A stretch of 64,000 nt of DNA from Undibacterium sp. CCC3.4 (GTDB lineage Bacteria > Pseudomonadota > Gammaproteobacteria > Burkholderiales > Burkholderiaceae_D): the NCBI RefSeq assembly GCF_034347425.1, contig NZ_CP133779.1, positions 2,666,001-2,730,000 on the forward strand, read 5' to 3'. How positions within the stretch are numbered: the first letter of the stretch is position 1; each line of letters opens with the position of its first letter. The notes beneath the pieces are model-generated. The model saw only the letters and a list, made by a program, of their open reading frames with translations. It was not told where the DNA came from and did not search any database. The position numbers and the translations under genes are program-made. Positions 24,401-46,974 of this stretch are shown one piece after another.

Positions 24401-25148
24401 GAAGCAAGCCTGGCATCGCTTCCCACGTGGTGCCGTGCCGGGCCAGTTTCTGCACGAACAATTGGAATGGATTGCCGGAGAAGGTTTTACTGTCATCGAA
24501 GATGAACATTTCAATACCCGCTTGGCACAACGTGCTTTACGGGCCGGCTGGGACCATCATCAAGCGGATCTCAACGAGTGGCTCACTGCCATCGTCTGCG
24601 CGCAGCTGCCGCCGATACAAAGCAGTTTGCTGCAGGTGCAAGAGCGTATCGCCGAAATGGAATTTTGGTTTCCTTGCCAAGCTGCTGCCAGTCGTGCGCT
24701 GGATAACTTGTGTCGCCAGCATTTATTGGCAGGACAAGCGCGACCGCAGTTGAGCGAGCGTCGCTTGCAAGGTTTGTTGATGGGCTTTGCCGATCTGGTG
24801 TTTGAACACGAGGGTAAATACTGGGTACTCGATTACAAATCGAATGCGCTCGGTGCCGATGACGCCGCCTACCATATCGGTGCGTTGACTCTGGCCATGG
24901 CCGCGCATCGCTATGATGTGCAAGCGGCGATTTATCTGCTGGCGCTGCACCGCTTGCTGCAGCAGCGTTTGGGTGCGCACTACGATCCGGCCCAGCACTT
25001 GGGTGGCGCGATTTTCTTTTTCTTGCGCGGCTTACAGCATCCCGAGACCCATGGCTGCTACCACGTGCTACCGAGCGCAGACTTTCTGCGCGATCTCGAC
25101 TTGGTCATGCGCCAGGCCGTCTCCACTGTCACCGAGGAAACCCACTGA
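21483..25148 (+). CDS. recB: Exodeoxyribonuclease V beta subunit RecB
   Basis: 1221 residues. SF1A helicase with C-terminal nuclease, the 3'-5' motor and only nuclease site of RecBCD. Motif I IEASAGTGKTWTIAALYLRL (about residues 18-37), motif Ia LVMTFTRAATRELSERI, motif II VALIDEFQDTSPQQY, motif III GDPKQSIYGFRGADI, motif V VKVITIHKSKGLEFPLVFVP, motif VI LLYVAVTRASHALWLG. The nuclease motif GLLMGFADLVFEHEGKYWVLDYKSNALG holds the PD-(D/E)xK Asp and Lys. Everything expected for an active enzyme is present. It follows recC directly with no ptr gene between, unlike E. coli. Confidence 0.96.
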   Translation: MSHLLDPLYFPLHGSRLIEASAGTGKTWTIAALYLRLVLGHGDADSGFQRPLHPSEILVMTFTRAATRELSERIRLRLAEAADLFRQAQPCAGDPFLQNLLADYPDETARQQAAYRLAMAADAMDDAAIFTIDAWCQRMLREHAFDSGCLFDETLLANEQNLFDNAVRDYWRGHVYPLTAAHWRAVAAVWPDVSALSQTLRQLLPQAALLATPAAQTLQSFLAQSLAEQQQALAVIKQGWPDKVVSIVAWFATEAERAPKQFSGTKLRPASLHKWLDSLAVWASDAEQVWPQLSDKIFEKLHPSALAAACNKGYQATLPPVFFELEGLQLALAALEPLGHQLCRHAVAQVGARMEELKQQQHQFGFKDLLERLGLALAGANRVAMRARIIEQYPVALIDEFQDTSPQQYAIFDALYQVQSNLPELGLFLIGDPKQSIYGFRGADIHSYLAARRACSGRHYLLGTNYRSTLPLVAAVNQLFLYAEQQSGLSAHQAGAFHFKTAHDNPVPFEAVQAQGRGSVYRAATPAQSAAALQFQIAEQRDANKEQAQYFFAQHCAEYIAQQLGSTQTGFQTQSAFVALQPADIAILVRDRHEAAAIRRALQERDIASVYLSDQDSIFRSAEALDVLCWLQAWAEPLSIEYGRAAFATKTALLTLRQLSELAADDAAWELRLEQLKQWHLVWQRQGVLAAMRRFIHELALPEKLLGQRGGERSLTNLLHLAELLEAASAQLDGEQALIRWLSEQISGQGEGSEEHVLRLESDAELVKVITIHKSKGLEFPLVFVPFAAAARQVTKTKQSFFKYTDASGRSVLDLGLSDEAQQAVERARLEEDLRLLYVAVTRASHALWLGVSNYKQNLQHSALGYLLNGGAAIDAPILPIFAALQGACAAIHITELSDAAGCTPLPRRIRSVAALEFPAYRANFERHWLVASFSSIARNLSADFSAKRTDDSKLFEDEVLPLVVTPKHQSLPKQAWHRFPRGAVPGQFLHEQLEWIAGEGFTVIEDEHFNTRLAQRALRAGWDHHQADLNEWLTAIVCAQLPPIQSSLLQVQERIAEMEFWFPCQAAASRALDNLCRQHLLAGQARPQLSERRLQGLLMGFADLVFEHEGKYWVLDYKSNALGADDAAYHIGALTLAMAAHRYDVQAAIYLLALHRLLQQRLGAHYDPAQHLGGAIFFFLRGLQHPETHGCYHVLPSADFLRDLDLVMRQAVSTVTEETH

Positions 25149-25150
25149 TC

Positions 25151-27118
25151 ATGCCTGACAACGATACTGTCTTACAGAGTCTGTCTGAACTGAGCGAGCG
25201 CGGCCAAGTGCGCCGGCTGGCGCTGGCTTTTGCGCGGTTTTTACATAGCTTGGGCGTGCGCGACGCGGCCGTTTTGCTGGCCGCGGCCATGCTCACTGAA
25301 ATCGAAGCACGCGGCCATATCTGCCTGGACTTGGCAGCGCTGGCGCGCGATCCGGCGGCAGTATTGGAATGGCCGAACGAAGAATGGGAAGCGCTGCGCG
25401 CTGCGCATGAGCTGCCATCGAATCAAGCCGACTGGCATGCAGTGTTGGCCACCAGCCCTTATATTTATCACGCTGACAGCGCTGCACCTGATGCCCAGCA
25501 AGTCTTGGTATTGCAAGCACAGCGACTGTATTTACGCCGTTACTGGCAGGATGAAACGCTGATCGCCACGGCCGTGCGTGCGCGTGCCGCTGATACCATC
25601 GAGCGCGATGAAACGGTACTGACAGATTTGCTCGATGACTTGTTTCTATCCGCAATCGCAGTCGCCGAACCGGCGAGCGAGCCCAGCCCTGATTGGCAAA
25701 AAATCGCCACCGCCATCGCCTTACGCGCTCGCTTTAGCATCATTACCGGCGGCCCCGGCACCGGTAAAACCTATACCGTGGCACGCTTGTTGGCAGCCTT
25801 GCTGCTGCTCGCCCCGGCGGGCACACAGCCCAGCATCGCCTTGGCCGCACCAACCGGCAAGGCCGCCGCGCGTTTGCGGCAATCGATAGACCAAGCCTTC
25901 AGCGAACTGGCCACGCGCAGCACTGCGCTGAGCGAATTCATTGCCCACCTTGGTCCGGCACGCACCTTACACAGCCTCTTGGGGGCGCGACCTGATACCC
26001 GGAGTTTTCGTCATCATGCCGGTAATCCGCTCGACCTGGATGTGCTCATCGTCGACGAAGCCTCGATGGTGCATGTGGAAATGATGGCCGCCTTGTTGGC
26101 TGCCTTACCGCGTAAAACCATGCTGATTTTGCTCGGTGATCAAGATCAATTGGCTTCGGTTGAGGCTGGTGCGGTACTCGGCGATTTGTGTGGCGACGCC
26201 GTCAGCGGTGGCTACCATGCCAGTACCGTCGACTATCTGAAACGCTGCACACAGCAACTGGTGCCGGCCGAGCTGCGCGGTGACGGCACTGCACTGGCCC
26301 AGCAAACCGTCATGCTGCGCCACAGCCGCCGCTTTGCCGGTGCCATCGGCGAGTTGGCGCGTGCGGTGAATGCCGGCGCGGCCGCCAGCGCTGCTGCCGT
26401 ACTGCGGCGTGGTCACGACGCCAGCTTGGCCTGGCTCGATGCCACTAGCCCAGCCGCTTTGTTACGCTTGGCCGGGCAGGGTCGGGCCGGTGCCGAAGGT
26501 GCTTATCAAGCCTATCTGAGTTTGCTGGCGCAAATGCCGCGCGCTGCTACCAGCGCCGACTACTTGGCATGGGTAAAACAAGTGCTCGATGCCTTCGAAG
26601 GCTTTCGTATTTTGTGTGCGGTGCGGGAAGGCGAGTGGGGTGTGGCCGGACTCAATCTGGCGATAGAACAAAGCTTGCATGCCCAAGGCCATATCCAGCG
26701 CGAGGGCGAATGGTATAGCGGTCGACCGGTGATGGTGACGCGGAACGACTACAGTGCCGGCGTCTTCAATGGCGATATCGGTTTGGCTTTGCCAGACCCT
26801 GATCCACAAAAAAGTTTGCGCGTGTATTTTCTCGACGGTCAACAGCTACGCAGTATTCTCGCTTCGCGCTTGCGCTATGTCGAGACCGCCTATGCCATGA
26901 CGGTGCACAAATCGCAGGGTTCCGAATTCGCCCACACCGTGCTGGTGTTACCACCCGACATGTCACCGGTGATCACCCGTGAATTGATCTACACCGGCAT
27001 CACCCGCGCACGCCGCCAATTTACTTTAGTTTGCCCGGTTTTAGCGGTATGGCAGAGCGCCTTGGCACTGAAAACCGAGCGAGCCAGCGGTTTGCGCGCG
27101 GCCTTGCAAGCACCGTAG
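25151..27118 (+). CDS. recD: Exodeoxyribonuclease V alpha subunit RecD
   Basis: 655 residues, two bases after recB stops. 5'-3' SF1B helicase of RecBCD. N-terminal domain (about 1-160), then Walker A FSIITGGPGTGKTYTVARLLAAL (about 196-215), APTGKAAARLRQSI (motif Ia), LIVDEASMVHVEMMAALLAAL (motif II), LLGDQDQLASVEAGAVLGDL (motif III), and TVHKSQGSEFAHTVLVLP plus ELIYTGITRARRQF (motifs V/VI). Complete by motif and length. It ends four bases before the stop of the convergent ABC exporter gene, with no terminator in between. Confidence 0.95.
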   Translation: MPDNDTVLQSLSELSERGQVRRLALAFARFLHSLGVRDAAVLLAAAMLTEIEARGHICLDLAALARDPAAVLEWPNEEWEALRAAHELPSNQADWHAVLATSPYIYHADSAAPDAQQVLVLQAQRLYLRRYWQDETLIATAVRARAADTIERDETVLTDLLDDLFLSAIAVAEPASEPSPDWQKIATAIALRARFSIITGGPGTGKTYTVARLLAALLLLAPAGTQPSIALAAPTGKAAARLRQSIDQAFSELATRSTALSEFIAHLGPARTLHSLLGARPDTRSFRHHAGNPLDLDVLIVDEASMVHVEMMAALLAALPRKTMLILLGDQDQLASVEAGAVLGDLCGDAVSGGYHASTVDYLKRCTQQLVPAELRGDGTALAQQTVMLRHSRRFAGAIGELARAVNAGAAASAAAVLRRGHDASLAWLDATSPAALLRLAGQGRAGAEGAYQAYLSLLAQMPRAATSADYLAWVKQVLDAFEGFRILCAVREGEWGVAGLNLAIEQSLHAQGHIQREGEWYSGRPVMVTRNDYSAGVFNGDIGLALPDPDPQKSLRVYFLDGQQLRSILASRLRYVETAYAMTVHKSQGSEFAHTVLVLPPDMSPVITRELIYTGITRARRQFTLVCPVLAVWQSALALKTERASGLRAALQAP

Positions 27119-27122: not shown

Positions 27123-28925
27123 TCAACTGTCGGCGCGCGTCAGGTGTTTCGCCGCGTCGGCTGCTTGCACCTGCTGCCAAGTGCCTTGACGCACTATGCG
27201 TCCGGCTTCCATCACCACCACATGATCGGCATGCTGCAAGCTGGCCAAGCGATGGCCGATGGCCACCACCGTCAGATTGCCATGCAGATCAACGATGGCC
27301 TGACGGATCCGCTCTTCATTTTCCACATCGAGTGCACTGGTGGCTTCATCCAGCAACAGCAAGGCCGGGCGGCGTAATAAGGCACGTGCCAGGGCAATCC
27401 GCTGGCGCTCGCCGCCAGATAAACGCAAGCCCTGATCGCCGACCAGCGTCGCCAGTCCCAGTGGTAAATCACGCACAAAACCGGCGGCGGCTTTATCCAA
27501 AGCTAACCATAATGCGGTGTCGTCCGCATCCGGCAGCGCCCACAACAAATTGCTGCGTATCGTGTCATTGAACAGGACTGGTTCTTGCGGCACATAGGCC
27601 AGCGCATGACGCCATTGCACCCGCTGTGCATCATCGAGTACCTTGCCATCGATCGACATCGTGCCGTGCTCGGGGCGCAGCAAGCCCATCAGCATATCGG
27701 CCAAGCTGCTTTTTCCCGCACCCGACTCGCCGATGATGGCGGTGGTGGTATTGGCGACAATCGTCAGATCGATCGCCTTGAGCGCGGCGCGCTCGCGGCC
27801 CGGGTAATGGAAGTCTATGCCGTGTAACGTTAACTGATGCGAAAATGTCGGCGCCACCGCAGCAGTCTCTGGTTCCGCCGCTTCACGGCACTGGGCCAAG
27901 ACCCTTTCGGTGTCAGCCAGCGCTGGCAGAGTGTGCAAGCACTGCTGCAAGTGCTGTTGGCATTGCGCAGCCAGCGGCATCAAGCGAGAAAAAACCAAGA
28001 TCAAGGCGGCCAACTCCGCGAGAGGCAAATGCCAGACTTCCAGTCCGGTATACAGTAAGACGGCCAGCATCAAGCTGGCAAGCAGTTGCGCGCGTGCGCG
28101 TGAATAACTGGCGCTGCGTTGAAAGCGCATCAATTGCTGGCGGTAGCCTTGCATCGATTGCAAAAAATTTTGCAAGTGACGTGATTCATTGCCGAGAATT
28201 TTGACTAACTTGATACCTTGCAGGCTTTCTTGTACCGTGCTGTGCAGCCGCTGCGAAGTCAGACCCAAGCCCGCGCCCAAGTGTAAGGCTTCGCGCCGCA
28301 AACGGCTTTCGGTGAAAAACATCAGTATCCCGGCGCTCAATACCAGCGCCGTCATCGGTGGCGATAGCCACAGCGCCGCGATGGTATACACCAGCAGTTG
28401 CGCCATCACACTACTGAGCTGGATGAAAAAATTCAGACCGAAGCCGATGCGGTTAATATCGGTCAGCAACAGATTCGCATATTCTGCATTATTCCGTTGC
28501 GATAGCCAAGTCCACTCACTTTTCAATACCGCCATCAAGCAGCGCTCGCGTAAACGGTCAACCAGGTTGCATTGAATTTCGGTAGACAGGATTTCTCGAA
28601 AAAACTGGGCGACAGTTTTCAGCGCTTGTAAGCTGATAAAAACCAGCAAAATACTCAAGCCTTGAAAGGGCATCGATAGCGCGGAAAAACTGCGCGCCAG
28701 CATGCCGTTGAAAGCGCTCGGCCTTGGTATGCCGGTGTGGGCCGCATCCTGCAATAAAGCAAACAAGGGTACCAGCAAACTGACGCCAAAACCCTCACTG
28801 ACGCTGACGATGGCCATGCACAGCCCTAACATCAGCAGCGGGCGACGCGGCTCTTGGCGTATCAAACGAAAAAATGCCTGAGCACTCTGCCATGCCGACA
28901 GCTCGGGCATGCTCAGCGTGCCCAT
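27123..28925 (-). CDS. ABC exporter, lasso peptide D protein
   Basis: 600 residues: an N-terminal six-helix exporter membrane domain (about 1-330) and a C-terminal ATPase with Walker A GESGAGKSSL, Q-loop YVPQEPVLF, signature LSGGERQRIALARALL, Walker B LLLLDEATSALD and the H-loop GHRLAS. Such half-transporters export the mature lasso peptide and may give self-immunity. It is the last gene of the minus-strand lasso operon; its start overlaps the end of B2 by 13 bases. The assignment to lasso peptide export rests on context; by sequence alone it is a multidrug/bacteriocin-type ABC exporter. Confidence 0.85.
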   Translation of the reverse strand: MGTLSMPELSAWQSAQAFFRLIRQEPRRPLLMLGLCMAIVSVSEGFGVSLLVPLFALLQDAAHTGIPRPSAFNGMLARSFSALSMPFQGLSILLVFISLQALKTVAQFFREILSTEIQCNLVDRLRERCLMAVLKSEWTWLSQRNNAEYANLLLTDINRIGFGLNFFIQLSSVMAQLLVYTIAALWLSPPMTALVLSAGILMFFTESRLRREALHLGAGLGLTSQRLHSTVQESLQGIKLVKILGNESRHLQNFLQSMQGYRQQLMRFQRSASYSRARAQLLASLMLAVLLYTGLEVWHLPLAELAALILVFSRLMPLAAQCQQHLQQCLHTLPALADTERVLAQCREAAEPETAAVAPTFSHQLTLHGIDFHYPGRERAALKAIDLTIVANTTTAIIGESGAGKSSLADMLMGLLRPEHGTMSIDGKVLDDAQRVQWRHALAYVPQEPVLFNDTIRSNLLWALPDADDTALWLALDKAAAGFVRDLPLGLATLVGDQGLRLSGGERQRIALARALLRRPALLLLDEATSALDVENEERIRQAIVDLHGNLTVVAIGHRLASLQHADHVVVMEAGRIVRQGTWQQVQAADAAKHLTRADS

Positions 28926-29395
28926 AGCGCTGGCGAGAGAAACATGCTGACCACAGTAAATTCAGAAAAACTATTTCCACCCGTTACATACACCGGACCG
29001 GCACAGACCCAGGCATGGGCCAGCAGTTTTTGTTCGGCATCTTTTTTTAAGCCGAAATACAAGGCATAGGGAATGCCATAAACTTTGAGCCAACAGCGCG
29101 CCGTAATCGCTTGTGCAAAACAATTCGCATTCCAAGGACAATAACGGGCGCTGCCGTTGATCAGGTGGGAAATTTGACGCGCCCGAAAAATCGCCGCCGG
29201 CGTCAGCAAAGGCACGGCCGCATTGACCCCGGCATGTTGGCCCAGACGCGGCGCAATTTGACGAAACGGTACGCTGAGCACCACCATCCGCGCCAGGCCA
29301 AGCAGACACCAAGTGGGGAAAAATCCCAATTGAAAAAACCGCGGTTGACGCAAAAAATTACGCAACTTGCGAGCTGCCAAGCTCAACAGCCTCAT
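28913..29395 (-). CDS. Lasso peptide B2, transglutaminase-like leader peptidase
   Basis: 160 residues from ATG 29395, which overlaps the B1 stop (ATGA); a longer in-frame reading up to 29539 lies inside B1 and is rejected. B2 proteins cut the leader off the precursor. The catalytic Cys is in PWNANCFAQAI (Cys92) and the His in LLAHAWV (His127), with the pattern Cys...GIPY...HAWV...G typical of the family; the third (Asp) residue is not clear. The basic, hydrophobic N-terminal 70 residues are also typical. Acts with B1, which delivers the leader. Confidence 0.85.
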   Translation of the reverse strand: MRLLSLAARKLRNFLRQPRFFQLGFFPTWCLLGLARMVVLSVPFRQIAPRLGQHAGVNAAVPLLTPAAIFRARQISHLINGSARYCPWNANCFAQAITARCWLKVYGIPYALYFGLKKDAEQKLLAHAWVCAGPVYVTGGNSFSEFTVVSMFLSPALWAR

Positions 29396-29658
29396 GCGTA
29401 TTGAACGATCTGCGCATCCAACAACTGGGTGATGAAGCTTTGCACGTCGTTGGCGCAGGTTTCTGCATCGACGGCAAACTCCGCTACCACGGCTTGATAC
29501 AACTGTTCCATGGTCTGCGGTGTTTGCAAGGTTTCCCAAATGATTGCGCCGACCGGATTAATGCCGTAGTAACGTCCTTGGCTGATACTCATCATGACCA
29601 AGTCGCCATCCATAGGAACGGCCAATAAATCGGGATGACGCATGATAAACTTGGACAT
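29392..29658 (-). CDS. Lasso peptide B1, PqqD-like leader recognition protein
   Basis: 88 residues, a single PqqD-fold RiPP recognition element. Hallmarks: LMMSISQGRYYGINPVGAIIWETLQTPQTMEQL (beta strands, then N.VGA.IW), followed by two helices and a C-terminal LLDAQIV. It binds the precursor leader and presents it to B2 and C. AGGAG lies six bases before the ATG. It follows the sulfotransferase gene by 51 bp and overlaps B2 by four bases. B1 and B2 are separate genes here, as in many Gram-positive and some proteobacterial lasso clusters, rather than the fused McjB form. Confidence 0.88.
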   Translation of the reverse strand: MSKFIMRHPDLLAVPMDGDLVMMSISQGRYYGINPVGAIIWETLQTPQTMEQLYQAVVAEFAVDAETCANDVQSFITQLLDAQIVQYA

Positions 29659-29708
29659 GCTTGGCTCCTAACTGAAATAAGTGAATCAAACAGCGTAAAT
29701 ATAATTTT

Positions 29709-30584
29709 TCAAACCGAAAAAGGCGAGCCATTCGCATCAAGATAAGCGAAGCGTAACATGACTGCACCATGATCGCGCAGTACCCGATCAATTTGCGCCG
29801 TGCTCAAAACATCGCGCCAGCCGCCGGCGGTTCCGCTGCGAAAAAAACGCTCAGCTTTGGCCGAGCGCTCACGAAATCCTTTTTCCTGCTCCTGGGTTGC
29901 GAGTTTTTCAAAGCTGCTGTGGGCCATCGCTTGTTGTATCCGCGCTGGCTCGGCCGGCAGTTCCAAAAACTGGCTGGCCCGAGTAAAGCTGGCCAAGCCA
30001 TCGGCCAGCATATCCTCATAGCGCAGCACACAACAAGCTAAGTTCTCGGCATCGACCCAACTGCGTACATGTTGCGACCAGCTCAGCAAGCGCTGGGTGA
30101 CTTGCGACTGCAGGCCATGCTGGTTTTTTGAAAGAGCAAAATCAGTTTTCCCCATGCGCTCGATCGCGCCGTCTATGCTGCAGCCCCAGTGGTGCGAGGC
30201 TGAAATGGCGACATCAAGGGGATTACGTAAAATATACAAGGCACCGCGCGTGGCTTCTCGGTTGACCAGCGGTTCACCGTTTGCCAGACGCAGATAAGCG
30301 TCATGTATTTTATGGTAGGCCAAGGCCGTGTTTTCTTTTTCTACCGTCCAGCGATAAACGGCTGGGCGTAGCGCTTCAATTTCTGACGGACTTAAATCGG
30401 CACTGTCGAAACCCAATAGTTCATCGAGCCAGCTACGGCTGCTGGCAATACCGCCGGTTTCCAGCGCATTGATATCGACTTCGCCATCTTGGCCGCGCTG
30501 TAAATTGGCGATGAACGCGCGCATCCAAGTATTACCCGATTTCGGGTAAGAGGCCAGCCAGTAGATGCCGCTCGCCGTACTCAT
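29709..30584 (-). CDS. PAPS-dependent sulfotransferase in lasso cluster
   Basis: 291 residues. Transfers sulfate from 3'-phosphoadenosine-5'-phosphosulfate to a hydroxyl. The 5'-phosphosulfate loop is YPKSGNTW (residues 13-20), the 3'-phosphate segment is YILRNPLDVAISASHHWG (about 118-135) and the C-terminal RSGTAGGWRDVLS matches the RxGxxGxW(K) motif of cytosolic-type sulfotransferases. The start overlaps the kinase stop (ATGA), so the two are translationally coupled. The likely acceptor is a Ser, Thr or the C-terminal group of the lasso peptide encoded 1 kb upstream; this is inferred from the operon. A complete catalytic domain, no transmembrane segment. Confidence 0.85.
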   Translation of the reverse strand: MSTASGIYWLASYPKSGNTWMRAFIANLQRGQDGEVDINALETGGIASSRSWLDELLGFDSADLSPSEIEALRPAVYRWTVEKENTALAYHKIHDAYLRLANGEPLVNREATRGALYILRNPLDVAISASHHWGCSIDGAIERMGKTDFALSKNQHGLQSQVTQRLLSWSQHVRSWVDAENLACCVLRYEDMLADGLASFTRASQFLELPAEPARIQQAMAHSSFEKLATQEQEKGFRERSAKAERFFRSGTAGGWRDVLSTAQIDRVLRDHGAVMLRFAYLDANGSPFSV

Positions 30585-31477
30585 GCCCGTTCTGCCGCAT
30601 CGGCCAGAATGCGCTCGGCCAGTTCATCGAGCGCGAAGCGGGTGTTCGGGCGCGTCACGCGCACCAGTTTGATTTGGCTCGACAACTGGGCGCACAAGCT
30701 TAAATGATGTGCCTTCAATGCCATTCCTTCCAAGAACCGTACCCGATAAGTATTTTCTTGCAAGACCGGGAAGCGCCGCATACCGCGCACGGTTTCAAAG
30801 ACAAACTCATCTCGGTTATGATTGCTCAGAATGTACACCCAGCGTATCGGCAAAGCAGAGCTGGCCATCGCATTCAAGGTCGGCAAATTGAATTTTTCCA
30901 TGTCCGGGCGTATGCGCGCCAGTTCGCCGGTGGCGATCTGCATTTTATCGGCGCTGTCTTGCCATAACTTAATGCGGGGAAAACCTGGTAAGGCCTGGCA
31001 TTGCGCATTCACCGGCACTACATCATCGGCCAACAGCCGGTGACCGCGTTGCATCAAGGCCGCTGCCAGAGTTGATTTGCCGGCACCGGAAGGGCCGACG
31101 CAGACCAGGCAAGCATCACCGACTTGCAGCGCATTGCCATGCAAGACCAGATATCGGCGTTGAAACATCAGAATACCCATGGCCGAGCCGAGCAAAAACA
31201 CGCGCACACTGGCCTCATCAATGCCGGCTTCGGTTTCGACGATGATTTCCTGGCCATTGCGAACCAGAAATGCGGCGACACCGGGTACCTGCAAGCAAAA
31301 TTCCTGTTCGGTCGCCCATAAAAAAGGACCGAGTTGGCGCGCCGTGGCGGTGATCGTGCTCAGCACTGCGCCGTAGACAATACTGACTTCGCTGCTTTGA
31401 TCTTCTGCGGGGGCTAATTCTGGCAGGGCGATTTGGCTGGAAATACCGAATTGGTATAGCTGATAATGATATGGCAT
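30581..31477 (-). CDS. HprK-like kinase, lasso peptide kinase family
   Basis: 298 residues. Related to the C-terminal domain of HPr kinase: P-loop VCVGPSGAGKSTLAAALMQRG (motif at about 128-136) and the acidic LLADDVVPV about 20 residues later. N-terminal about 110 residues are specific to HprK-related proteins of RiPP clusters. Members in paeninodin-type lasso clusters phosphorylate the C-terminal Ser side chain of the precursor; this precursor does end in Ser. Directly downstream of the precursor gene (116 bp) and coupled to the sulfotransferase. That it phosphorylates this peptide is inference from the family and position. Confidence 0.82.
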   Translation of the reverse strand: MPYHYQLYQFGISSQIALPELAPAEDQSSEVSIVYGAVLSTITATARQLGPFLWATEQEFCLQVPGVAAFLVRNGQEIIVETEAGIDEASVRVFLLGSAMGILMFQRRYLVLHGNALQVGDACLVCVGPSGAGKSTLAAALMQRGHRLLADDVVPVNAQCQALPGFPRIKLWQDSADKMQIATGELARIRPDMEKFNLPTLNAMASSALPIRWVYILSNHNRDEFVFETVRGMRRFPVLQENTYRVRFLEGMALKAHHLSLCAQLSSQIKLVRVTRPNTRFALDELAERILADAAERA

Positions 31478-31593
31478 GACAGTTCAGTAAAGATGGGGTG
31501 GAACAATGTCGCAATCAAATGCTTGGTGCCGATGTCATCCGCTGCCTTGGCAGACTGGTAAATTAATTTTTTAAGCGGGAAGCCTGAAACTAC

Positions 31594-31737
31594 TTAAGAA
31601 TTTGAACTGCTATCCGCACCTAGAGTGGATGATTTTCCATCTGTTTTTTCATTGCCGAGCTGTACCAATATGGGGGCAGCGTAAGCGCGGCGTTCCGAAT
31701 CAATTTGCTCGGAGATATACAGCAGCGGTGTTGTCAT
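31594..31737 (-). CDS. Lasso peptide precursor (47 residues)
   Basis: Too short for the usual ORF cutoff. GGAG lies seven bases before ATG 31737. The leader has the lasso motif YxxPxLxxLG as YAAPILVQLG (Tyr19, Pro22, Leu24, Gly28) bound by B1, and a Thr at -2 (Thr32-Asp33). The predicted core starts at Gly34: GKSSTLGADSSSNS (14 residues), with Asp42 placed to form a nine-residue Gly1-Asp9 macrolactam. The tail SSSNS contains five hydroxyl/amide residues, ends in Ser (fits the adjacent kinase) and has no bulky plug residue. It sits between the synthetase (C) and the kinase on the same strand. The exact cut site is predicted, not shown. Confidence 0.87.
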   Translation of the reverse strand: MTTPLLYISEQIDSERRAYAAPILVQLGNEKTDGKSSTLGADSSSNS

Positions 31738-31840
31738 ATCTTTTCTCCATTGACAAAAAGTCACAATTTGTTGAAGCAGGTGGAGACGACTTACATGACA
31801 ATTTCACGCAATTGAGTAAATTTTTTCCGTTTCCCTGAGC

Positions 31841-31859
31841 ATATTACACGTAGTAATAT
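31841..31859. promoter_or_regulatory. Inverted repeat upstream of lasso precursor gene
   Basis: ATATTAC - ACGTA - GTAATAT, a perfect 7-5-7 dyad about 100 bases upstream of the precursor start and 28 bases downstream of the C gene stop. Could be an operator for a separate precursor promoter. The surrounding 31738-31886 stretch is AT-rich and holds no gene; no clear sigma-70 promoter was identified. Confidence 0.45.
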
Positions 31860-31886
31860 AGACTAATCGTAACATAGTTATTGCGT

Positions 31887-33671
31887 CTAGGCAAATTCAG
31901 GGAATTGCCGTAAAAATTGGATTAAATAAATTGCGCGTGGCACCATGTGCATGGCGGCGAAGTCAATTTGCGTATCGCAACGATTGCTTTGCATCTCTAT
32001 CCCGACCATCTTTTGCAAACGCGCCACATCGATGACTGCGCGTATCGGATCGTGAGCACCAATGCTGGCGAACAATTGTTCGGCCAAGTAGCGTTGGCGG
32101 TTGTAGCGCAAATGAAAATCAGGGGAAAACGGTTGCTTACTGGTACGCCACTGTATTTGCGCTGGCAATAGGCCATTCATCGCGTGGCGTATCAAACTGC
32201 GCGGATAACCATTGCTGACCTTCAGATGGGTAGGCGCAGCCAAGCAAAATTCGATGATGCGTTGATCGAGCAAAGGCAAGGAAAAATGCACCCCAAGCTC
32301 ATTCGCTCCGCGTAATCCGGCTTGTGTCTGGAATTTGGCAATACTGGACGCCTGTATCGCGCGGGGATGGCGATAGCTTTGGCTTGACTGACTTAACTGC
32401 GCCAACAAAGTGGCCGGCGCTTGCGGTAAATGCTGCGCGAGATAAGCGTGCTGAAACGGCTGCTGCTCAAGCATGTGCGTGGAACTGGCTGGCTGCGAAC
32501 GCCCAACCAGTTTGAGTAGCCAAGTTGGTGCTAAGGGTCTGAGCAATTCGCTCTTGAGTACGCGTTGCACAGGAAGGCCATAGACTCGCGCTCTCGCTTG
32601 TAATTCTTTTGCTAACAGCCACCACTGACCGGAGCGAAACAATTCAACATAAAAACCGTTGCCGTGATTGGTAGGCCCATGCTCGCCGAAACCGCCACCA
32701 AAGACCGTTTCTGCGCCGTGCGCAGTGGCGGCATGGGCAAAGGCATCAAATTGAAACTGGCGCGAATTGATGAAAGGCTTGCCTTGTGCCCGTATCGTCG
32801 ACGACACATCATCAAACGGACCGCGCTGCTGATCGCTGACCTCAAGAAAATCAATATTATCGACTTTGGAAAAGGCCGCGATGAATGCCGATTCATCTTC
32901 CATGGTGCTGCGCAAATGGGCTGGCAGCACTGCCGACATCGCCAGCAAGCGGCGATTTTGTTTTTTTAATATGCTCGCCGCCACCGCCACCAAAGACGAG
33001 GAATCCAAACCACCGCTGAGCAAAGCCGCCGGTGTGGAGTGCGCCGGCAAGCGCGCTTCGACGGCAGCAAACAGCAGCGCGCGCAAAGCTTCCGGCACTT
33101 CGCGGTCGGGGATGTCGAGACGCCGTTCCGGGTCTGGTTGCCAGTAAGACCAGCTGCGCAAACCGCTGGCATCAAGACACAATACACTGCCACCGGGCAA
33201 TGCCAGCACGCCTTCGTAAAAACTCTCTGGGCCAGGCTCCATCCAAATCAATGCGCTGCGTACCAGTTTGCCGTGGTTGAGGCGGCGGCCGATTTGCGGA
33301 TGATCGAGCAAGGGGGCGATCCGCGCGCAAGCCAGTAATTGGCTACCCTGATGGGCATAAAACAAACTGCCGATTCCCAGTGCATCGCGGGCCGCGACAA
33401 TTCTCTGCTTGGCGCTGTCGTGAAGAATCAAGCTAAATTCCCCCAGCAAGTACTCGGGCATAGCCAGATCCCAGCGCTGATAGGCCAGTGCCAGCAAATC
33501 TGTCACTGCCGGCACAGGCCCACGCAGCCCCAGACGCGCGGCCAGGGCTGGGCATTCGTCCAGTCTGCCGGCGAAGGCAATCGACAGCGTCGGCTTGGCC
33601 GTTCGGTTCAGGTCAAAGGCCACCACGCCGTTGGCTAAGTCGTGCAAAGGAAGCGCAGGGGGGGAGGGCAT
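31887..33671 (-). CDS. Lasso peptide macrolactam synthetase (C protein, asparagine synthase-like)
   Basis: 594 residues. N-terminal region (about 1-190) is a degenerate class II glutaminase-like domain without the N-terminal catalytic Cys; the C-terminal region is an asparagine-synthetase fold with PP-loop ALLSGGLDSSSLVAVAAS (about 213-230). In lasso pathways this enzyme adenylates the side-chain carboxylate (here predicted Asp9) and joins it to the new N-terminus. FGGGFGEHGPTNHG resembles the second active-site segment. It is the first gene of the minus-strand operon, divergent from the ATP-grasp gene across about 160 bp. Confidence 0.88.
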   Translation of the reverse strand: MPSPPALPLHDLANGVVAFDLNRTAKPTLSIAFAGRLDECPALAARLGLRGPVPAVTDLLALAYQRWDLAMPEYLLGEFSLILHDSAKQRIVAARDALGIGSLFYAHQGSQLLACARIAPLLDHPQIGRRLNHGKLVRSALIWMEPGPESFYEGVLALPGGSVLCLDASGLRSWSYWQPDPERRLDIPDREVPEALRALLFAAVEARLPAHSTPAALLSGGLDSSSLVAVAASILKKQNRRLLAMSAVLPAHLRSTMEDESAFIAAFSKVDNIDFLEVSDQQRGPFDDVSSTIRAQGKPFINSRQFQFDAFAHAATAHGAETVFGGGFGEHGPTNHGNGFYVELFRSGQWWLLAKELQARARVYGLPVQRVLKSELLRPLAPTWLLKLVGRSQPASSTHMLEQQPFQHAYLAQHLPQAPATLLAQLSQSSQSYRHPRAIQASSIAKFQTQAGLRGANELGVHFSLPLLDQRIIEFCLAAPTHLKVSNGYPRSLIRHAMNGLLPAQIQWRTSKQPFSPDFHLRYNRQRYLAEQLFASIGAHDPIRAVIDVARLQKMVGIEMQSNRCDTQIDFAAMHMVPRAIYLIQFLRQFPEFA

Positions 33672-33833
33672 AGTCAGGGCGAGAAAGGGAAAGATGATCG
33701 GTGATGTAACAAGGCAATATAATACGCTAGGTAGGCAATTCAGTGACGATCGCTATCCCGCTCCGATGGCTGGAGCAGATCCGCTACAATGGCGATGAAA
33801 ATTTGTCAGAACCACTATTTACGGAAGCATGAC

Positions 33834-35042
33834 ATGCCGATATCAGCCATATTACACAGCTTCATCAGGCTGGCATCTCAACAATTCATTGTGCGCCACA
33901 CCGCACATGGCTTGATCAGCTGGCGCTATCTGTTGCCGCGGCAGAATGCGTTGATACGCTTGCACCGCCAATTCTGGTGGCAAACGCCGAGCAAATTGCC
34001 GCGTGCGCTGTGGCTGTTGTTTGAACTGTTACTGTGGCTGCGTTGGATAGGCTGGTATGCTTGGCGTGACAGTTGGAAAGTCAGCCGCAGCCAACATGCG
34101 CAAATCGATCCAGCGCACCGCCTGACACAGATGCAGTTATTCTTGCGCTTACTCAGACTGAGCTTGGCGCATGGCATGGTGCCGGGGGTGTCGTGCCACC
34201 ATCAGCTGTATCTGTCAGGAAGTAAGCCTTGGGCTTACCTGTTTCCGAATGAATGCGCAGCATTCCATCGCTGGCGTGATGGTAATGTTCATCCGGCCGC
34301 CATCAAAACCTTGGCCGACAAGCATATATGCAGCCGCCAATTCGCCGAATTAGGCATCGCGGCGGCGGCGAATCTGGCACTGCTGCGCAAAGGCAGTCCC
34401 GAACCGGATTGGTCGCAGTTTCCCTTGCCAGCTTTTTTAAAGCCGCGCTATGGGTCGGCCGGCAAGCACTGTTTTTATTTACGTCGCAGCGAGGGTGCTG
34501 CCCTGTACTGGCAAGAATACGAACAGCCGCCGCACCACAGCAGGCAGGCTCGGCAGGCATGGAAAGTCGCTGCGGCAAAAAACGATTTTCTACTGCAAGC
34601 TTGCTATACCAACGCGCCAGCGCTTGACATCATTCATCCAGAACTGATCACCCTGCGCGTGTTGAGTACCTGCGCAGCCGGACAATGCCGCATCGAACTC
34701 GCTTACTTAGAAATTCCCGATGGAATAAAACACTACCAGATACAGCCCTTGGATCTGGAAACCGGGCAATTGATTGTACTGCCACAGATCAAGAGCAACC
34801 GCGCCCAACTATACTGGCAAGCAGCACAACTGCATTTACTGCCACATTGGGCCCAAGCTGCCCGCTCGGCGCTTTCTGCCCATGCCGCCTTGGCCCCCGA
34901 TTTGTACGGGGCCGCCTGGGATTTCATACTCAGCCAAGAGGGGGCCTTACTGTTGGAAGGTAATACCACCTGGGGTACTGGGGCGTGGCAAACGGTGCGT
35001 GGGCCATTGCTTGCCAAATATGCCATTGATGATTATCATTAA
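33834..35042 (+). CDS. ATP-grasp protein (sugar-transfer-associated type)
   Basis: About 402 residues from ATG 33834, favoured because CGGAAG lies just upstream; ATGs at 33789 and 33795 are possible. The N-terminal half is rich in Trp/Leu/Arg helices (about 20-90). The C-terminal half has ATP-grasp features: KPRYGSAGKHCFYL (nucleotide loop), LQACYTNAPALDIIHPELITLRVLSTC and, at the end, LYGAAWDFILSQEGALLLEGNTTWGTGAWQ, resembling metal-binding E.N of ATP-grasp ligases of the ATPgrasp_ST family. ATP-grasp enzymes form amide, ester or thioester bonds through acyl phosphates. It reads divergently from the lasso operon; participation in it is only inferred from position. Confidence 0.65.
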   Translation: MPISAILHSFIRLASQQFIVRHTAHGLISWRYLLPRQNALIRLHRQFWWQTPSKLPRALWLLFELLLWLRWIGWYAWRDSWKVSRSQHAQIDPAHRLTQMQLFLRLLRLSLAHGMVPGVSCHHQLYLSGSKPWAYLFPNECAAFHRWRDGNVHPAAIKTLADKHICSRQFAELGIAAAANLALLRKGSPEPDWSQFPLPAFLKPRYGSAGKHCFYLRRSEGAALYWQEYEQPPHHSRQARQAWKVAAAKNDFLLQACYTNAPALDIIHPELITLRVLSTCAAGQCRIELAYLEIPDGIKHYQIQPLDLETGQLIVLPQIKSNRAQLYWQAAQLHLLPHWAQAARSALSAHAALAPDLYGAAWDFILSQEGALLLEGNTTWGTGAWQTVRGPLLAKYAIDDYH

Positions 35043-35079
35043 TAATTGCTGATGAGCAAACAGTGTTTTATTTTTTCCT

Positions 35080-35500
35080 TCATCAAAAATCTGACTAGGG
35101 TTTGAAACCCCGGCCTTCAGAGGCTGTCGCAAAAGGGTAATGAGTCGGTATCATTACCCTGACTGGTGGCCACGTCATTCCTGCGCGCTTTTGGCAGGAA
35201 CCCAGCGGCGTTCGTGGTTAACTGAAAATGCCAGAAATTGTGGCATTTTCAGTGTAAAAAACGACGCTGGGTTCCCGCCAAAAGCATGCGGGAATGACGA
35301 GGCTGTGGCATGCGGGAATGACGAGGCTGTGGCATGCGGGAATGACGAGGTATGCGGTGTTTCAGGTGTAAAAAACGTCCATCAGGCTTTTGCGACAGCC
35401 TCTTGGGGCCGGTGAGCGACGAAGGAGCGACGCGATGGGAGGGGATGCAAACCCCTTCCAGAGTCTTTTCCATCGTCGCTTGCGACGATCCATTAAATTG
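35080..35500. repeat. R1 repeat element, copy 4 (most complete)
   Basis: Flank A (35080-35117), inverted end AGGCTGTCGCAAAAG (about 35120), hairpin core, 24-bp tandem units at 35284 and 35308 plus a partial one, inverted end CTTTTGCGACAGCCT, then flank B (about 35401-35500) ending GACGATCCATTAAATTG. About 420 bp. It separates the ATP-grasp gene from cysC. No coding capacity is supported. Confidence 0.87.
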
Positions 35501-35523
35501 TTTTTTTGTTATCCCCTTAGCTT

Positions 35524-36081
35524 ATGACGACTGCAAGCACACTGTGGTTTACCGGCCTTTCCGGTGCCGGCAAATCGACCTTGGCCACGGCCACCGCAAA
35601 GGCATTGAGGGCGCGTGGCCATGCCTGTACTGTGCTCGACGGCGACATCATGCGGCAAGGTTTGTGTCAAGGCCTGGGTTTCTCTCCCGCCGATCGACGC
35701 GAAAATTTGCGTCGTATTGCCGAAGTCGCGGCATTGATGAACCAAGCCGGCCTGACAGTCTTGGTGGCGACTATCTCACCCTTGCACAGTGATCGCGAGA
35801 TGGCCAGGCACATCATCGGCGCTGCGCATTGGGTGTCGGTGTATGTCTCGACCGCGCTATCAGTATGCGAGCAACGCGATGCCAAGGGTTTATATCTGCG
35901 CGCGCGGCGCGGGGAAATCAGCGACTTCACCGGTGTCAGTGCACCCTATGAAGTACCGAGTCAAGAGCAACTGCAGATCGATACTGCACAACTGACGACC
36001 GAGCAAGCGGTACACAATGTGCTGTCTACCCTGCATAGCCACATGAGCAACTCAAGCAAGCAAGAAAAGAATCGACTATGA
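35524..36081 (+). CDS. cysC: Adenylylsulfate kinase
   Basis: 185 residues. Phosphorylates adenosine 5'-phosphosulfate to PAPS, the sulfate donor of sulfotransferases. Walker A GLSGAGKST (about residues 12-20), then LDGDIMRQGLCQGLGFSPADRRENLRRIAEVA, the APS-kinase signature (D(G)D..R.GL..LGFS...R.EN.RR), and VATISPLHSDREMAR. Stand-alone kinase form, not fused to CysN. Its stop overlaps the start of the nucleotidyltransferase gene (ATGA). Its presence near a sulfotransferase gene, rather than in a cysDN operon, suggests dedicated PAPS supply for the lasso pathway. No clear ribosome site precedes the ATG. Confidence 0.9.
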   Translation: MTTASTLWFTGLSGAGKSTLATATAKALRARGHACTVLDGDIMRQGLCQGLGFSPADRRENLRRIAEVAALMNQAGLTVLVATISPLHSDREMARHIIGAAHWVSVYVSTALSVCEQRDAKGLYLRARRGEISDFTGVSAPYEVPSQEQLQIDTAQLTTEQAVHNVLSTLHSHMSNSSKQEKNRL

Positions 36082-37298
36082 CACCAAGCTACGACCGCCG
36101 CGGCGCTTGCCCGCTAGACCCGCGTGACCAAGGGCCGGAATTTGAATTGCTGCTGACGTGCTGCCGTCCCGTGGCGAAACACTGCGATGTGGAACGACAG
36201 ATTGCGCTGGCAAAACAAGCGCTCGACACCAAGAAAGTAATTGAATTAGCGCGCCGCCACAAAGTGTCGGCCCTCGTGTACTGTAATTTAAAACAACATC
36301 AAGCCGCTACCTTCGATGCGGCCTTGATCGATGAATTGGCCAGACGTTACAAAAACAATGCGCAGAAAGCGATGCGCTCGCTGCAAACGCTGCATCAAAT
36401 GGCGCAACTCAAACCGGCGTTTCCGGTGTTTGTCATGAAGGGGCTCGATGTCGCCTTGCGCGCCTACCATGATCTGGCGGCACGCGATGTCGGCGATATC
36501 GATTTGCTGGTCGAACCGGAAAATTTGCGGGCTGCGTATCAGATGTTGGCCACGCACGGCTGGACATCGAATACCAGCTCATTCGAAAAATTTTTTACTT
36601 CAAAAATCTTGCGTAATATCAGTTACGACATCGGCTTGTATCGTGCCGGTTTCCCTAAGCTGGAACTGCACTGGCGGCCCACCTACAATCCCTACGAATT
36701 TTCGATGGCGCATCTCAACAGTAGCAGCATATCGAGACTAGCCAATACCGGCTTGGCCGGCTTCAATGCCGAAGATTTACTGATCTATTTGTGCGTACAC
36801 GGAAGCAAGCACGGCTGGGGTCGGTTGAAATGGCTGTACGATTTACCGAATGTGATAGAACAAATCGAATTGGATTGGCCCTTGATTTGGCAGCGTGCCG
36901 ATCAAGTGGGTGCAAGCTTCGCGCTCCAACAAGCTTTGCTGCTGGCCGAACAATACTGCGGTGTAGCCTTGAGCGCGCCCATGCGCGCCGGCTTTCGTTA
37001 CCGTATCAGCCCTAAACAATGGCAAGCGATTCGTCAATTCCAGTCCGGCCCGGAAAGTTGGATGGAGTCGCCACCATTTCATTTATTGCTACGTTTGTAT
37101 GCGAACCGCATCAGCACCGCCATCAAACCGAAAATTTTGCTTTGGTATTGTTTATGGATGTTTAACCCGAACATCAGAGATTTCGAATTAATTCCTTTGC
37201 CGCATAAATGGGAACCCGTGTATTTTTTACTCCGGCCCTTCACCTGGAGCATACGTCGGCTGCAAATTTGGAAAGCCAGACGCAGTGCAGTCGGCTAA
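36078..37298 (+). CDS. Nucleotidyltransferase-like protein (NTP_transf_5 type)
   Basis: 406 residues. The segment FPVFVMKGLDVALRAYHDLAARDVGDIDLLVEPENLRAAYQMLATHGW (about 115-160) matches the uncharacterised nucleotidyltransferase family PF14907, with the Asp-x-Asp pair in GDIDLL as probable metal ligands. Downstream parts fit the family's helical C-terminal half (LLIYLCVHGSKHGWGRLKWLYDL). Family members recur in RiPP clusters together with HprK-like kinases. Translationally coupled to cysC. Whether it modifies the lasso peptide or another substrate cannot be told from sequence. Confidence 0.75.
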   Translation: MTPSYDRRGACPLDPRDQGPEFELLLTCCRPVAKHCDVERQIALAKQALDTKKVIELARRHKVSALVYCNLKQHQAATFDAALIDELARRYKNNAQKAMRSLQTLHQMAQLKPAFPVFVMKGLDVALRAYHDLAARDVGDIDLLVEPENLRAAYQMLATHGWTSNTSSFEKFFTSKILRNISYDIGLYRAGFPKLELHWRPTYNPYEFSMAHLNSSSISRLANTGLAGFNAEDLLIYLCVHGSKHGWGRLKWLYDLPNVIEQIELDWPLIWQRADQVGASFALQQALLLAEQYCGVALSAPMRAGFRYRISPKQWQAIRQFQSGPESWMESPPFHLLLRLYANRISTAIKPKILLWYCLWMFNPNIRDFELIPLPHKWEPVYFLLRPFTWSIRRLQIWKARRSAVG

Positions 37299-40382: not shown

Positions 40383-40889
40383 ATGGCAACCTATTCCGCT
40401 GCATTTATTGAGCAGGCATTACAGAAGGCCTATTCCCGTGGCGACCGAACAATCATGTCAGTGGCCACTGATTTAAATTTGAATCACCACACGTTGAGAT
40501 ATTGGATGAAAAAGAAGTCAGCACTGGCGGGCAGTCCGGCGTCAGAAAAAGAAAAACGACCGAGCGACTGGACGGTAGAAGAACAACTGCAGGCACTGCA
40601 TGAGAGCCATGCGTTAGCGGGAGAGCAGCTTCAGGCATGGTGCCGTGAACGTGGTTTATTCCCGCATAATTTAACCAGTTGGAAATCTGCTTTTTGCGCC
40701 AGCGGTAAAGAGGCCGCACCCAAAGCTGGTGAAGTTAAATCGCTGAAAGATGAAAACGTCAAACTCAAGCGTGAGCTGGCCCGGAAAGACAAAGCTCTGG
40801 CGGAGGCGGCAGCACTGCTGGTTCTGCAAAAAAGTTCCGTGCGCTTTGGGAGGACGAGGAGTAATGACCCCAATCCCGGAGCGCAATAA
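40383..40889 (+). CDS. IS3-like transposase OrfA (probable frameshift near 3' end)
   Basis: About 168 residues as read, from ATG 40383 with GCGAGG upstream. Helix-turn-helix MSVATDLNLNHHTLRYWMKKK near the start and a Leu/Lys heptad-like helix (LKDENVKLKRELARKDKALAEAAALLVLQK) for multimerisation. After LVLQK the frame goes into SSVRFGRTRSNDPNPGAQ; one extra A in the C(A)6G run at 40827-40834 would instead give KKFRALWEDEE ending in TAATG at the OrfB start, the normal pattern. Either a one-base deletion or a slippage site. Confidence 0.72.
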   Translation: MATYSAAFIEQALQKAYSRGDRTIMSVATDLNLNHHTLRYWMKKKSALAGSPASEKEKRPSDWTVEEQLQALHESHALAGEQLQAWCRERGLFPHNLTSWKSAFCASGKEAAPKAGEVKSLKDENVKLKRELARKDKALAEAAALLVLQKSSVRFGRTRSNDPNPGAQ

Positions 40890-41949: not shown

Positions 41950-41990
41950 AAATTTACTTTTAGGCGACAACTAGCTTGAAAAACTCCGGT

Positions 41991-42180
41991 GGGTAGGGTA
42001 GCGCTGCGGGGGCGGCTTTGGTCGGGCAAGGTAGCAATACTAAGCGCGTCAGCCGCCCACTTCGGCATTTCTGCCAAGTTGCCCAAGTCGCCAAAATTCG
42101 CCCAGTTCGCCCAGTTCGCCCAGTTCGCCCAAGAAGTCACCCAATTCGCCGAATTCGTCATTTCCCCCATCCTCCCAATT
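41991..42180. repeat. Repeat block X, copy 1, with (GGGTA)2
   Basis: Two GGGTA units then GCGCTGCGGGGGCGGC... to CCTCCCAATT. Includes four 9-bp units TTCGCCCAG starting about 42097. The block recurs at 42426-42587 with two 9-bp units. No gene. Confidence 0.85.
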
Positions 42181-42353
42181 CGTCATTGCCGCGCAGGCGG
42201 CAATCCAGAGGCGCGTAAGCGCCTTTCATATCCGTACGCTTGATGCCCAGCGAGATGTCCTCATTTTTCAGCGGAATCAATGCGCCCGTGATTGACGTAC
42301 CTACCCTGAAGGCACTGCCGTGCCACTGGATTGCCGCCTGCGCGGCAATGACG
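42181..42353. repeat. R2 repeat, copy b (173 bp)
   Basis: Full-length R2 with both end palindromes, followed by GG then the GGGTA tract. Near-identical to copy a. Confidence 0.9.
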
Positions 42354-42355
42354 GT

Positions 42356-42645: not shown

Positions 42646-42647
42646 TC

Positions 42648-45800: not shown

Positions 45801-45818
45801 AGCACACCGCTTTTTACT

Positions 45819-46130: not shown

Positions 46131-46133
46131 GTC

Positions 46134-46970: not shown

Positions 46971-46974
46971 GCTC

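Follow-up and report, generated by a model that had tools for sequence, protein, structure and literature searches.

The nearest known relatives of the locus analysed here include the paeninodin cluster and the clusters of the kinases ThcoK and SyanK, which, in passages of PMC8498205, PMC9266682 and PMC5067487, combine an HprK-like kinase with split B1 and B2 proteins, a cyclase C, an exporter and a Ser-ending precursor. A passage of PMC9266682 describes, for pseudomycoidin, a kinase and a nucleotidyltransferase within one lasso cluster, the two tailoring enzymes named there, and has the nucleotidyltransferase placing a hexose on the phosphate. Passages of PMC4289311, PMC8498205 and PMC11381294 already report sulfotransferases encoded in lasso clusters, in one of these papers beside an HPr kinase; the Gram-positive examples, such as that of Paenibacillus polymyxa CR1, have no product reported in those passages, and the open-licence literature searched, passages of a 2026 review included, yielded no sulfated lasso peptide. 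The Undibacterium cluster shares the full paeninodin-type gene set and, with the Gram-positive clusters, the sulfotransferase gene. It differs from the paeninodin, ThcoK and SyanK systems in that its kinase is coupled to a sulfotransferase, in its additional APS kinase and ATP-grasp ligase, and in its core of 14 residues with a 5-residue tail lacking bulky side chains; relative to the tailoring enzymes named for pseudomycoidin, it adds the sulfotransferase, the APS kinase and the ATP-grasp ligase, and its host, unlike that of pseudomycoidin, is a proteobacterium.

The ten genes of this lasso-peptide cluster were all found at 27123..37298 of the window, the 64,000-nucleotide stretch of DNA that was analysed, and every enzyme named in the preliminary description lies at the place and on the strand given there:

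27123..28925, minus strand: D, ABC exporter (PF00005 110 bits, PF00664 67.8 bits)
28913..29395, minus strand: B2, leader peptidase, Transglut_core3 (NF033537 80.8 bits, cut-off 33)
29392..29658, minus strand: B1, PqqD-like leader-binding (RRE) protein (PF05402 69.1 bits, over cut-off)
29709..30584, minus strand: ST, PAPS-dependent sulfotransferase (PF00685 81.6 bits)
30581..31477, minus strand: K, HprK-like kinase (PF07475 Hpr_kinase_C 40.4 bits, cut-off 33.3)
31594..31737, minus strand: precursor, leader MTTPLLYISEQIDSERRAYAAPILVQLGNEKTD, predicted core GKSSTLGADSSSNS
31887..33671, minus strand: C, lasso macrolactam synthetase, asparagine-synthetase-like (PF00733 Asn_synthase 107 bits, over cut-off)
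33672..33788, no strand: intergenic stretch of 117 nt from which C and the ATP-grasp gene diverge (from the coordinates)
33789..35042, plus strand: ATP-grasp ligase of a type seen at lasso loci (PF14397 35.2 bits, cut-off 31.4)
35524..36081, plus strand: CysC, APS kinase, PAPS supply (PF01583 194.7 bits)
36078..37298, plus strand: NT, nucleotidyltransferase (PF14907 165.2 bits)

The best NCBIfam model for C is the lasso cyclase NF033535 (254 bits, under the curated cut-off of 525), B1 falls narrowly under the cut-off of 80 for NF033536 with 79.2 bits, and the Cys of PWNANCFAQA and the His of HAWV in B2 are common to its relatives. The overlapping stops and starts previously attributed to the whole minus-strand run are present at K/ST, where the ST start overlaps the K stop by 4 nt, at B1/B2 (4 nt) and at B2/exporter (13 nt), and are absent between C and precursor, precursor and K, and ST and B1, which are separated by 149, 116 and 50 nt respectively. 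On the plus strand cysC and NT overlap by 4 nt. The gap between C and the ATP-grasp gene is a probable two-way promoter region; a promoter scan returned sites not above the shuffled level and none inside 33672..33788. Given that a repeat element sits in the 481 nt between the ATP-grasp gene and cysC, and that C and the precursor diverge strongly from those of the nearest relative, it might be supposed that the cluster has decayed or is silent and yields no product. This is very improbable for two reasons: first, every frame is open and the catalytic residues are conserved; second, K, ST, B1, B2 and D retain 60-72% identity to those of the G005 cluster. The same gene set is found again at related loci, which argues against a chance assembly. 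Two sub-threshold Rfam matches to microRNA models within the repeat element were taken as hairpin artefacts.

The predicted core, GKSSTLGADSSSNS, would form a ring between G1 and D9 with the tail SSSNS and a C-terminal Ser. The precursor matched no Pfam or NCBIfam family and a homologue search returned the window's own protein as sole match. Nevertheless, it carries the expected lasso features of Thr at -2, a small residue 1 and Asp/Glu at 7-9 (KTD followed by GKSSTLGAD), and its YxxP-to-Thr(-2) spacing and core layout match those of the 37 precursors with a terminal Ser found at K+ST loci, a set in which the window precursor is itself counted. Ser occupies the C-terminus in 37 of the 42 canonical precursors adjoining K and ST, against a background of 8.6%; L180, where both enzymes are present, has two canonical precursors ending in Val and Pro, and the search pattern found no canonical Ser-ending precursor in 50 of 82 K+ST loci. 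The assignment of K as a paeninodin-type kinase, proposed from the outset, agrees with its PF07475 match and with the Ser that ends the window core. Residues H113, K134, D151 and D152 of K are invariant among 23 aligned kinases and, by positions assigned in the present analysis, would constitute the His-Lys-Asp-Asp motif of HprK-like lasso kinases named in a passage of PMC9266682. Phosphorylation of the C-terminal Ser by K is predicted.

In ST, WLASYPKSGNTW, K92, H94, R120 and S128 are invariant in 23 aligned sequences. Judged from these residues its PAPS site is intact: YPKSGNTW, H94, R120 and S128, invariant in all 23, correspond to the 5' PSB loop, the catalytic His and the 3' phosphate site. 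The solved structures that match ST best, at about 70 bits and over parts of the chain only, are the glycopeptide-antibiotic sulfotransferases Teg12 and Teg14, which have the same PAPS-binding loop; their substrates are non-ribosomal glycopeptides, unlike the ribosomal lasso precursor of the window.

Comparison across genomes indicates that K and ST recur as a coupled pair. At 70 of 81 ST loci K is found on the strand of ST, upstream of it and within 1.5 kb; the 81 omit L001-L003 (short duplicates), L006 (identical to L004) and L085 and include at least one near-duplicate, since L014 and L015 appear to be one cluster. In 67 loci no more than 80 nt separate the K stop from the PAPS motif of ST, the median over the 70 being 17 nt, and the near pairs come from ten phyla, as taken from record titles. 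A survey of 78 lasso loci, made up of 77 B2 matches and L170 (a kinase match) and omitting three B2 places under the family cut-off (G738, G467 and G802), contained 8 loci with K and ST, 21 with K only, none with ST only and 49 with neither (p = 1.8e-4); ST-like frames under 200 bits were scored as no ST at L171 (70 bits, without K) and L210 (94 bits, with K). On the kinase tree, from which L015 was additionally excluded, the ST label changes 5 times, as against 20.8 when shuffled. The combination was initially thought unusual; this does not hold, given that the pair recurs and that lasso clusters containing a sulfotransferase already appear in the literature, and clusters conserving precursor, kinase and sulfotransferase together, whose absence would have spoken against the proposed pathway, are common. 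The passages of PMC8498205, PMC11381294 and PMC4289311 do not describe the pair across phyla, the exclusivity of the PAPS supply or the ATP-grasp link reported below.

The best reading of these data, and one that we hold to be fairly probable, is that the product is a small lasso peptide, phosphorylated and sulfated, made from GKSSTLGADSSSNS. Sugars and lipids are frequent acceptors of bacterial sulfotransferases, and the cores do not identify the acceptor of ST: a further Ser, Thr or Tyr occurs in 36 of 37 Ser-ending tails where about 35 are expected from composition alone, so that these 37 tails give no signal above composition for a second hydroxyl site and no specific second site is indicated. 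This raises the possibility that the peptide is phosphorylated only and that ST has as its acceptor a sugar, a lipid or some other small molecule exported or displayed with it. Such a scenario is improbable, given that in many phyla the ST gene is tightly coupled to that of the peptide kinase, that ST is nested within K clusters in the survey, and that Teg12 and Teg14 sulfate a peptide antibiotic.

The C-terminal Ser is the sole hydroxyl position common to these cores. Both enzymes could build there, with the sulfate on the phosphate or on a hexose added by NT, giving a single bulky, charged cap in place of two separate marks. In keeping with this, K and ST are a coupled pair inherited together, NT occurs alongside them in 41 of 74 loci, and the Ser phosphate is a known site of elaboration by related kinases and a nucleotidyltransferase (passage of PMC9266682); however, NT was not found near the other 33 loci, and in three loci of Bacteroidota-type MAGs (L040 and L052, which carry cysC, and L068) ST adjoins B1 with no K detected, so that ST may act without K or a divergent K has been missed. 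Furthermore, a phosphate-sulfate anhydride would be labile, and the sulfate could also sit on another Ser or Thr. A single cap is accordingly regarded as a possibility of some weight, albeit an unlikely one. The same universal acceptor position, and the same loci with ST and no detected K, would also suit K and ST acting as alternative marks on one Ser, in which case the product would be a phospho/sulfo mixture of the same nominal mass, the two additions differing by only 0.0095 Da. As this would leave the strict retention of the K-ST pair unexplained, it is considered decidedly improbable.

The early proposal that PAPS is made locally is supported by the host genome, in which the cluster's APS kinase is the only clear source. 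ST alone matches Sulfotransfer_1 in that genome and CysC (194.8 bits in the genome-wide comparison) is its only clear match to an APS kinase; two others stand barely at the cut-off of the Pfam model (21.1 and 22.4 bits), and by eye one of them was recognised as a shikimate kinase/dehydroquinate synthase, the other as an FtsY-like protein. The host CysH has the CC and CxxC cysteines typical of APS reductases, so that it looks APS-type. Together, these three observations make PAPS seem reserved for the lasso pathway in this host. More widely, cysC is present in 13 of 74 K+ST loci and in none of the 70 ST-free loci of the survey (p = 1.4e-4, the two groups being sampled differently); it lies directly upstream of K at L012 and L017, and is absent from the 8 surveyed ST loci and from the remaining 61 of the 74.

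NT places a nucleotidyltransferase inside a kinase lasso cluster, as in pseudomycoidin, whose PsmN presumably belongs to the same family, PF14907. The pseudomycoidin precedent for NT had been overlooked in the preliminary description, as had the tracking of ATP-grasp with a ring lysine.

Lys is found at core position 2 or 3 in 13/13 loci with the ATP-grasp gene and in 5/35 without it, the strongest link among 372 enzyme-feature tests; for cysC, NT, D, B2 and C, no association with core features survived correction for these 372 tests. A tree-controlled version of the ATP-grasp test left just 3 independent pairs with good support, each of them concordant or undecided, a number too small for significance (median p 0.25). 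This tracking suggests modification of a ring lysine, and in the window the ligase probably modifies Lys2. An AlphaFold2 model of the enzyme (pLDDT 87.7) resembles D-Ala-D-Ala ligases and ArgX, and its sequence gave only chance matches against the PDB. A graspetide-type role, in which one side chain is linked to another, was rejected, as it would call for a spare Asp/Glu and the core has none, its one acidic residue, D9, being taken by the lasso ring. L179 (ATP-grasp with no K or ST seen, a GK core and no Ser end) was set aside as a double dissociation because its contig has just 7480 bases, and the candidate core GKMKQRTHEQNKNVGS at L194 was left uncounted as its leader is not canonical; no precursor was found at the ATP-grasp loci L012, L025, L171 and L201. 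Passages retrieved from the literature for lasso peptides with ATP-grasp enzymes concern microviridins, graspetides or MysC instead.

In the proposed pathway, by homology, B1 would bind the leader and K would phosphorylate the linear precursor on its C-terminal Ser. ST, produced in step with K, would transfer sulfate from PAPS supplied by the local CysC, and NT would probably extend the phosphate with a hexose, as in pseudomycoidin. B2 would cleave the leader after Thr-Asp, C would link Gly1 to Asp9, presumably around a threaded tail, the ATP-grasp ligase would probably alter Lys2 of the ring, and D would export the product. It is conceivable, although unlikely, that the cluster belongs to a large class of very short, charge-capped lasso peptides spread across phyla, in which K and ST, with NT optional, put phosphate and sulfate on the C-terminal Ser, the cap is a mechanical stopper holding a threaded tail of small residues (SSSNS) in members such as that of the window, a dedicated lasso ATP-grasp enzyme acylates or cross-links Lys2, and each enzyme reads one fixed residue while the rest of the core is free.

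A gene pair expected to make sulfated lasso peptides recurs in ten phyla, as judged from record titles. If confirmed, this would reveal doubly anionic lasso peptides as a large class, would provide a portable enzyme pair that may need little beyond a C-terminal Ser, and would test the charged cap as a lasso stopper. The ATP-grasp/Lys2 link would add a new type of lasso modification whose target residue can be tested directly, and the host genome, which has a single sulfotransferase and a single clear APS kinase, offers a clean system for testing.

All ten genes listed in the preliminary description of the cluster were found with open frames, and the enzymes, the PqqD-like leader-binding protein B1 and the ABC exporter were placed as expected by Pfam and NCBIfam. 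The proposed run of overlapping genes holds for the HprK-like kinase and the PAPS sulfotransferase, B1 and the leader peptidase B2, B2 and the exporter, and cysC and the PF14907 nucleotidyltransferase, but not for the cyclase C and the precursor, which lie 149 nt apart, or for the precursor and the kinase, separated by 116 nt. The contig containing the window is single (4.59 Mb, 97.7% complete). The predicted precursor has a Tyr-x-x-Pro motif in its leader and a Thr at -2, and its core is GKSSTLGADSSSNS; given that D9 is the sole acidic residue of this core, a nine-residue ring followed by the five-residue tail Ser-Ser-Ser-Asn-Ser is predicted. Across 23 aligned sequences the catalytic residues H113, K134, D151 and D152 of the kinase are invariant, as are the PAPS loop, H94, R120 and S128 of the sulfotransferase. 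The surroundings of the cluster in the window are as follows.

7987-13487, complete rRNA operon: 16S, two tRNAs, 23S, 5S
17965-27118, recC, recB and recD-like genes, adjoining the cluster on its upstream side
35110-35412, repeat roughly 300 bases long with inverted ends of 16 bases (GAGGCTGTCGCAAAAG), separating the ATP-grasp gene and cysC; also at 17244-17885
40750-48843, downstream flank: integrase-core transposase, HipA-like protein (minus strand), DDE transposase (minus strand)

The transposases and the HipA-like gene are signs of a mobile neighbourhood. The repeat looks like a high-copy MITE-type element: its inverted end has 7 exact copies in the window, and a genome search gave at least 110 matching stretches, with about 40 long copies (40 of 192 candidates scored).

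Lasso peptides phosphorylated at the C-terminal Ser, polyphosphorylated or extended by a hexose have already been published (PMC8498205, PMC9266682), and the accessible text of three papers mentions sulfotransferase genes in lasso clusters (PMC8498205, PMC4289311, PMC11381294). No sulfated lasso peptide was found among the open-licence papers searched on lasso peptides with sulfotransferase, sulfation or HPr kinase, a 2026 review included, most subscription papers lying outside that set.

A scan of the sulfotransferase alignment against one genome per species gave at least 593 matching stretches, 561 of which encode a relative; the best 80 loci were kept and, with the window and two relatives added and duplicates removed, make a set of 81. 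At 70 of these 81 loci the kinase lies no more than 1.5 kb upstream of the sulfotransferase, both being on one strand, and at 67 its stop falls within 80 nt of the PAPS motif (median 17 nt over the 70). Eleven loci lie outside the 70 (L020, L040, L048, L051, L052, L061, L062, L066, L068, L073 and L084). Five of them, L020, L048, L051, L061 and L073, have a kinase frame nearby after all, directly upstream in L020 yet outside the distance rule, and L066 is a contig end. At L040, L052 and L068 the sulfotransferase stands beside B1 with no kinase detected, cysC being present in L040 and L052. Runs of at least eight consecutive sulfotransferase frames occupy L062 (9884-16812) and L084 (2-7997), both on proteobacterial contigs, and neither a kinase nor any other cluster gene was detected in either locus. 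Two proteins from the protein search (P0021 and P0108, one named from Celerinatantimonas yamalensis) have a GNAT acetyltransferase domain fused to a sulfotransferase of this family.

Kinase-sulfotransferase pairs by phylum (79 pairs; open frames starting within 2.5 kb on one strand; phyla by record title, which may be wrong)
Pseudomonadota, 32
Bacteroidota, 11
Chloroflexota, 9
Thermodesulfobacteriota, 5
Verrucomicrobiota, 3
Acidobacteriota, 3
Lentisphaerota, 2
Actinomycetota, Cyanobacteriota and Bacillota, 1 each
The window and loci without a phylum title, 11

The 81 loci were chosen by the sulfotransferase. A survey by B2 alone had matches in 17 of 370 class-level and 51 of 397 phylum-level genomes. 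When 90 bits was required for the kinase and 200 bits for the sulfotransferase, so that weaker sulfotransferase-like frames at L171 (no kinase) and L210 (kinase) scored as none, the 78 loci sampled (77 from B2 matches and L170, a kinase match) divide into 8 with both enzymes, 21 with the kinase only, 0 with the sulfotransferase only and 49 with neither (Fisher p 1.8e-4). In a kinase tree with 102 rows, 5 changes account for the sulfotransferase label (20.8 when shuffled), and over the 79 pairs kinase and sulfotransferase distances correlate at 0.72 (shuffled maximum 0.27), a value to which shared ancestry of the hosts contributes.

A precursor pattern blind to the last residue found 61 distinct small ORFs at loci with both enzymes, 46 of them ending in Ser; when Thr at -2 was demanded, 37 of 42 did so, against a background of 8.6% of 24,742 segments. 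The remaining five are three resembling chance ORFs and two real-looking precursors at L180. These two (13054-13575) are canonical, end in Val and Pro and lie beside a kinase-sulfotransferase pair, and are an exception. The 37 stem from 32 of 82 such loci, and at least one (L019, 15363-15566) looks like chance. Of the 7 canonical cores at kinase-only loci, 4 have a C-terminal Ser; the comparison with kinase-less clusters is weak, because few of their precursors fit the pattern and just 2 are canonical. The Ser-ending cores at loci with both enzymes are short, having 13-21 residues with tails of 5-13. As to where a sulfate would sit, the C-terminal Ser is the only hydroxyl position common to them, and additional hydroxyls occur in as many cores as composition alone would produce (one of 37 tails has none, 2.1 expected). 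The stopper idea rests on the window tail, in which Asn is the largest residue; because only 3 of the 37 tails are free of F, W, Y, R, H, K, Q, L, I, M, E and V, it may hold for few members.

Regarding PAPS supply, the cluster sulfotransferase is the sole Sulfotransfer_1 match in its genome, and CysC the sole strong APS-kinase match; two others barely reach the Pfam cut-off and are read from their sequences, one as a shikimate kinase/dehydroquinate synthase, the other as an FtsY-like protein. CysH bears the cysteines typical of APS reductases, and assimilation in this host should therefore not need PAPS. APS-kinase matches vary across the genus: each of 43 genomes has at least one, but in a number of genomes they are borderline only, and in others they are strong at places where no HprK-like kinase was found. 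cysC is within reach at 13 of 74 loci with both enzymes, at 0 of 70 survey loci lacking the sulfotransferase and at 0 of 8 survey loci having it.

Within the genus the cluster is sporadic, given that a kinase query built from the window and the relatives G005 and G003 matched in just 3 of 43 genomes. G005 shares with the window 72% identity in the kinase, 65% in the sulfotransferase, 61% in B1, 60% in B2, 61% in the exporter, 66% in CysC, 47% in the nucleotidyltransferase and 43% in the ATP-grasp protein, and its precursor ends in GKIPFTSEFSTLGNHS. The cyclase is just 27% identical (3353-5206 of the G005 cluster, L004, and 31887-33671 of the window), while the kinase, sulfotransferase, B1, B2 and exporter stand at 60-72%, as if the cyclase had been exchanged together with the core. 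In G005 the cyclase, ATP-grasp, cysC and nucleotidyltransferase genes form a run on one strand, and the kinase, sulfotransferase, B1, B2 and exporter a second run on the opposite strand; the cyclase has thus changed sides relative to the window, and its sharing a run with the other three supports a single pathway. A second cluster in G005 (L170, G005:C53:1-12000) holds two divergent kinases, B1 and a cyclase, with no sulfotransferase. In the 17 kb examined of G003 the cyclase, sulfotransferase, kinase, B1 and a precursor AGPDGANDGGTFSS are present, and B2, exporter, ATP-grasp and linked cysC were not detected.

The plus-strand ATP-grasp gene (33789-35042, PF14397) is associated with a lysine in the core. 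Among 48 loci with a Ser-ending precursor, Lys stands at core position 2 or 3 in 13 of 13 with ATP-grasp and in 5 of 35 without (p 4e-8), the 35 including near-identical cores from one genus; inside the 39 loci having both kinase and sulfotransferase the counts are 13 of 13 and 5 of 26 (p 1.1e-6), the strongest of 372 enzyme-feature tests. The tree offers 3 independent pairs when well-supported branches alone are used and 7 when every branch is, and in 200 pairings of supported branches Lys never went in the opposite direction (median p 0.25). The link is strong by count, though shared descent may contribute to it. Searches across the order (399 genomes) and the phylum (397) gave seven ATP-grasp matches above 300 bits, the window and loci already identified here as lasso clusters, five of the six outside the window being rows of the query alignment and G435 the only independent case; weaker matches scored 76-155 bits. 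The protein model (pLDDT 87.7) matched D-Ala-D-Ala ligases as well as ArgX, at TM-scores near 0.35 of the query, and this match is taken to fall in the C-terminal part because the first 187 residues are nearly all helical. This ATP-grasp fold would be compatible with a carboxylate-amine ligase whose target is a lysine amine.
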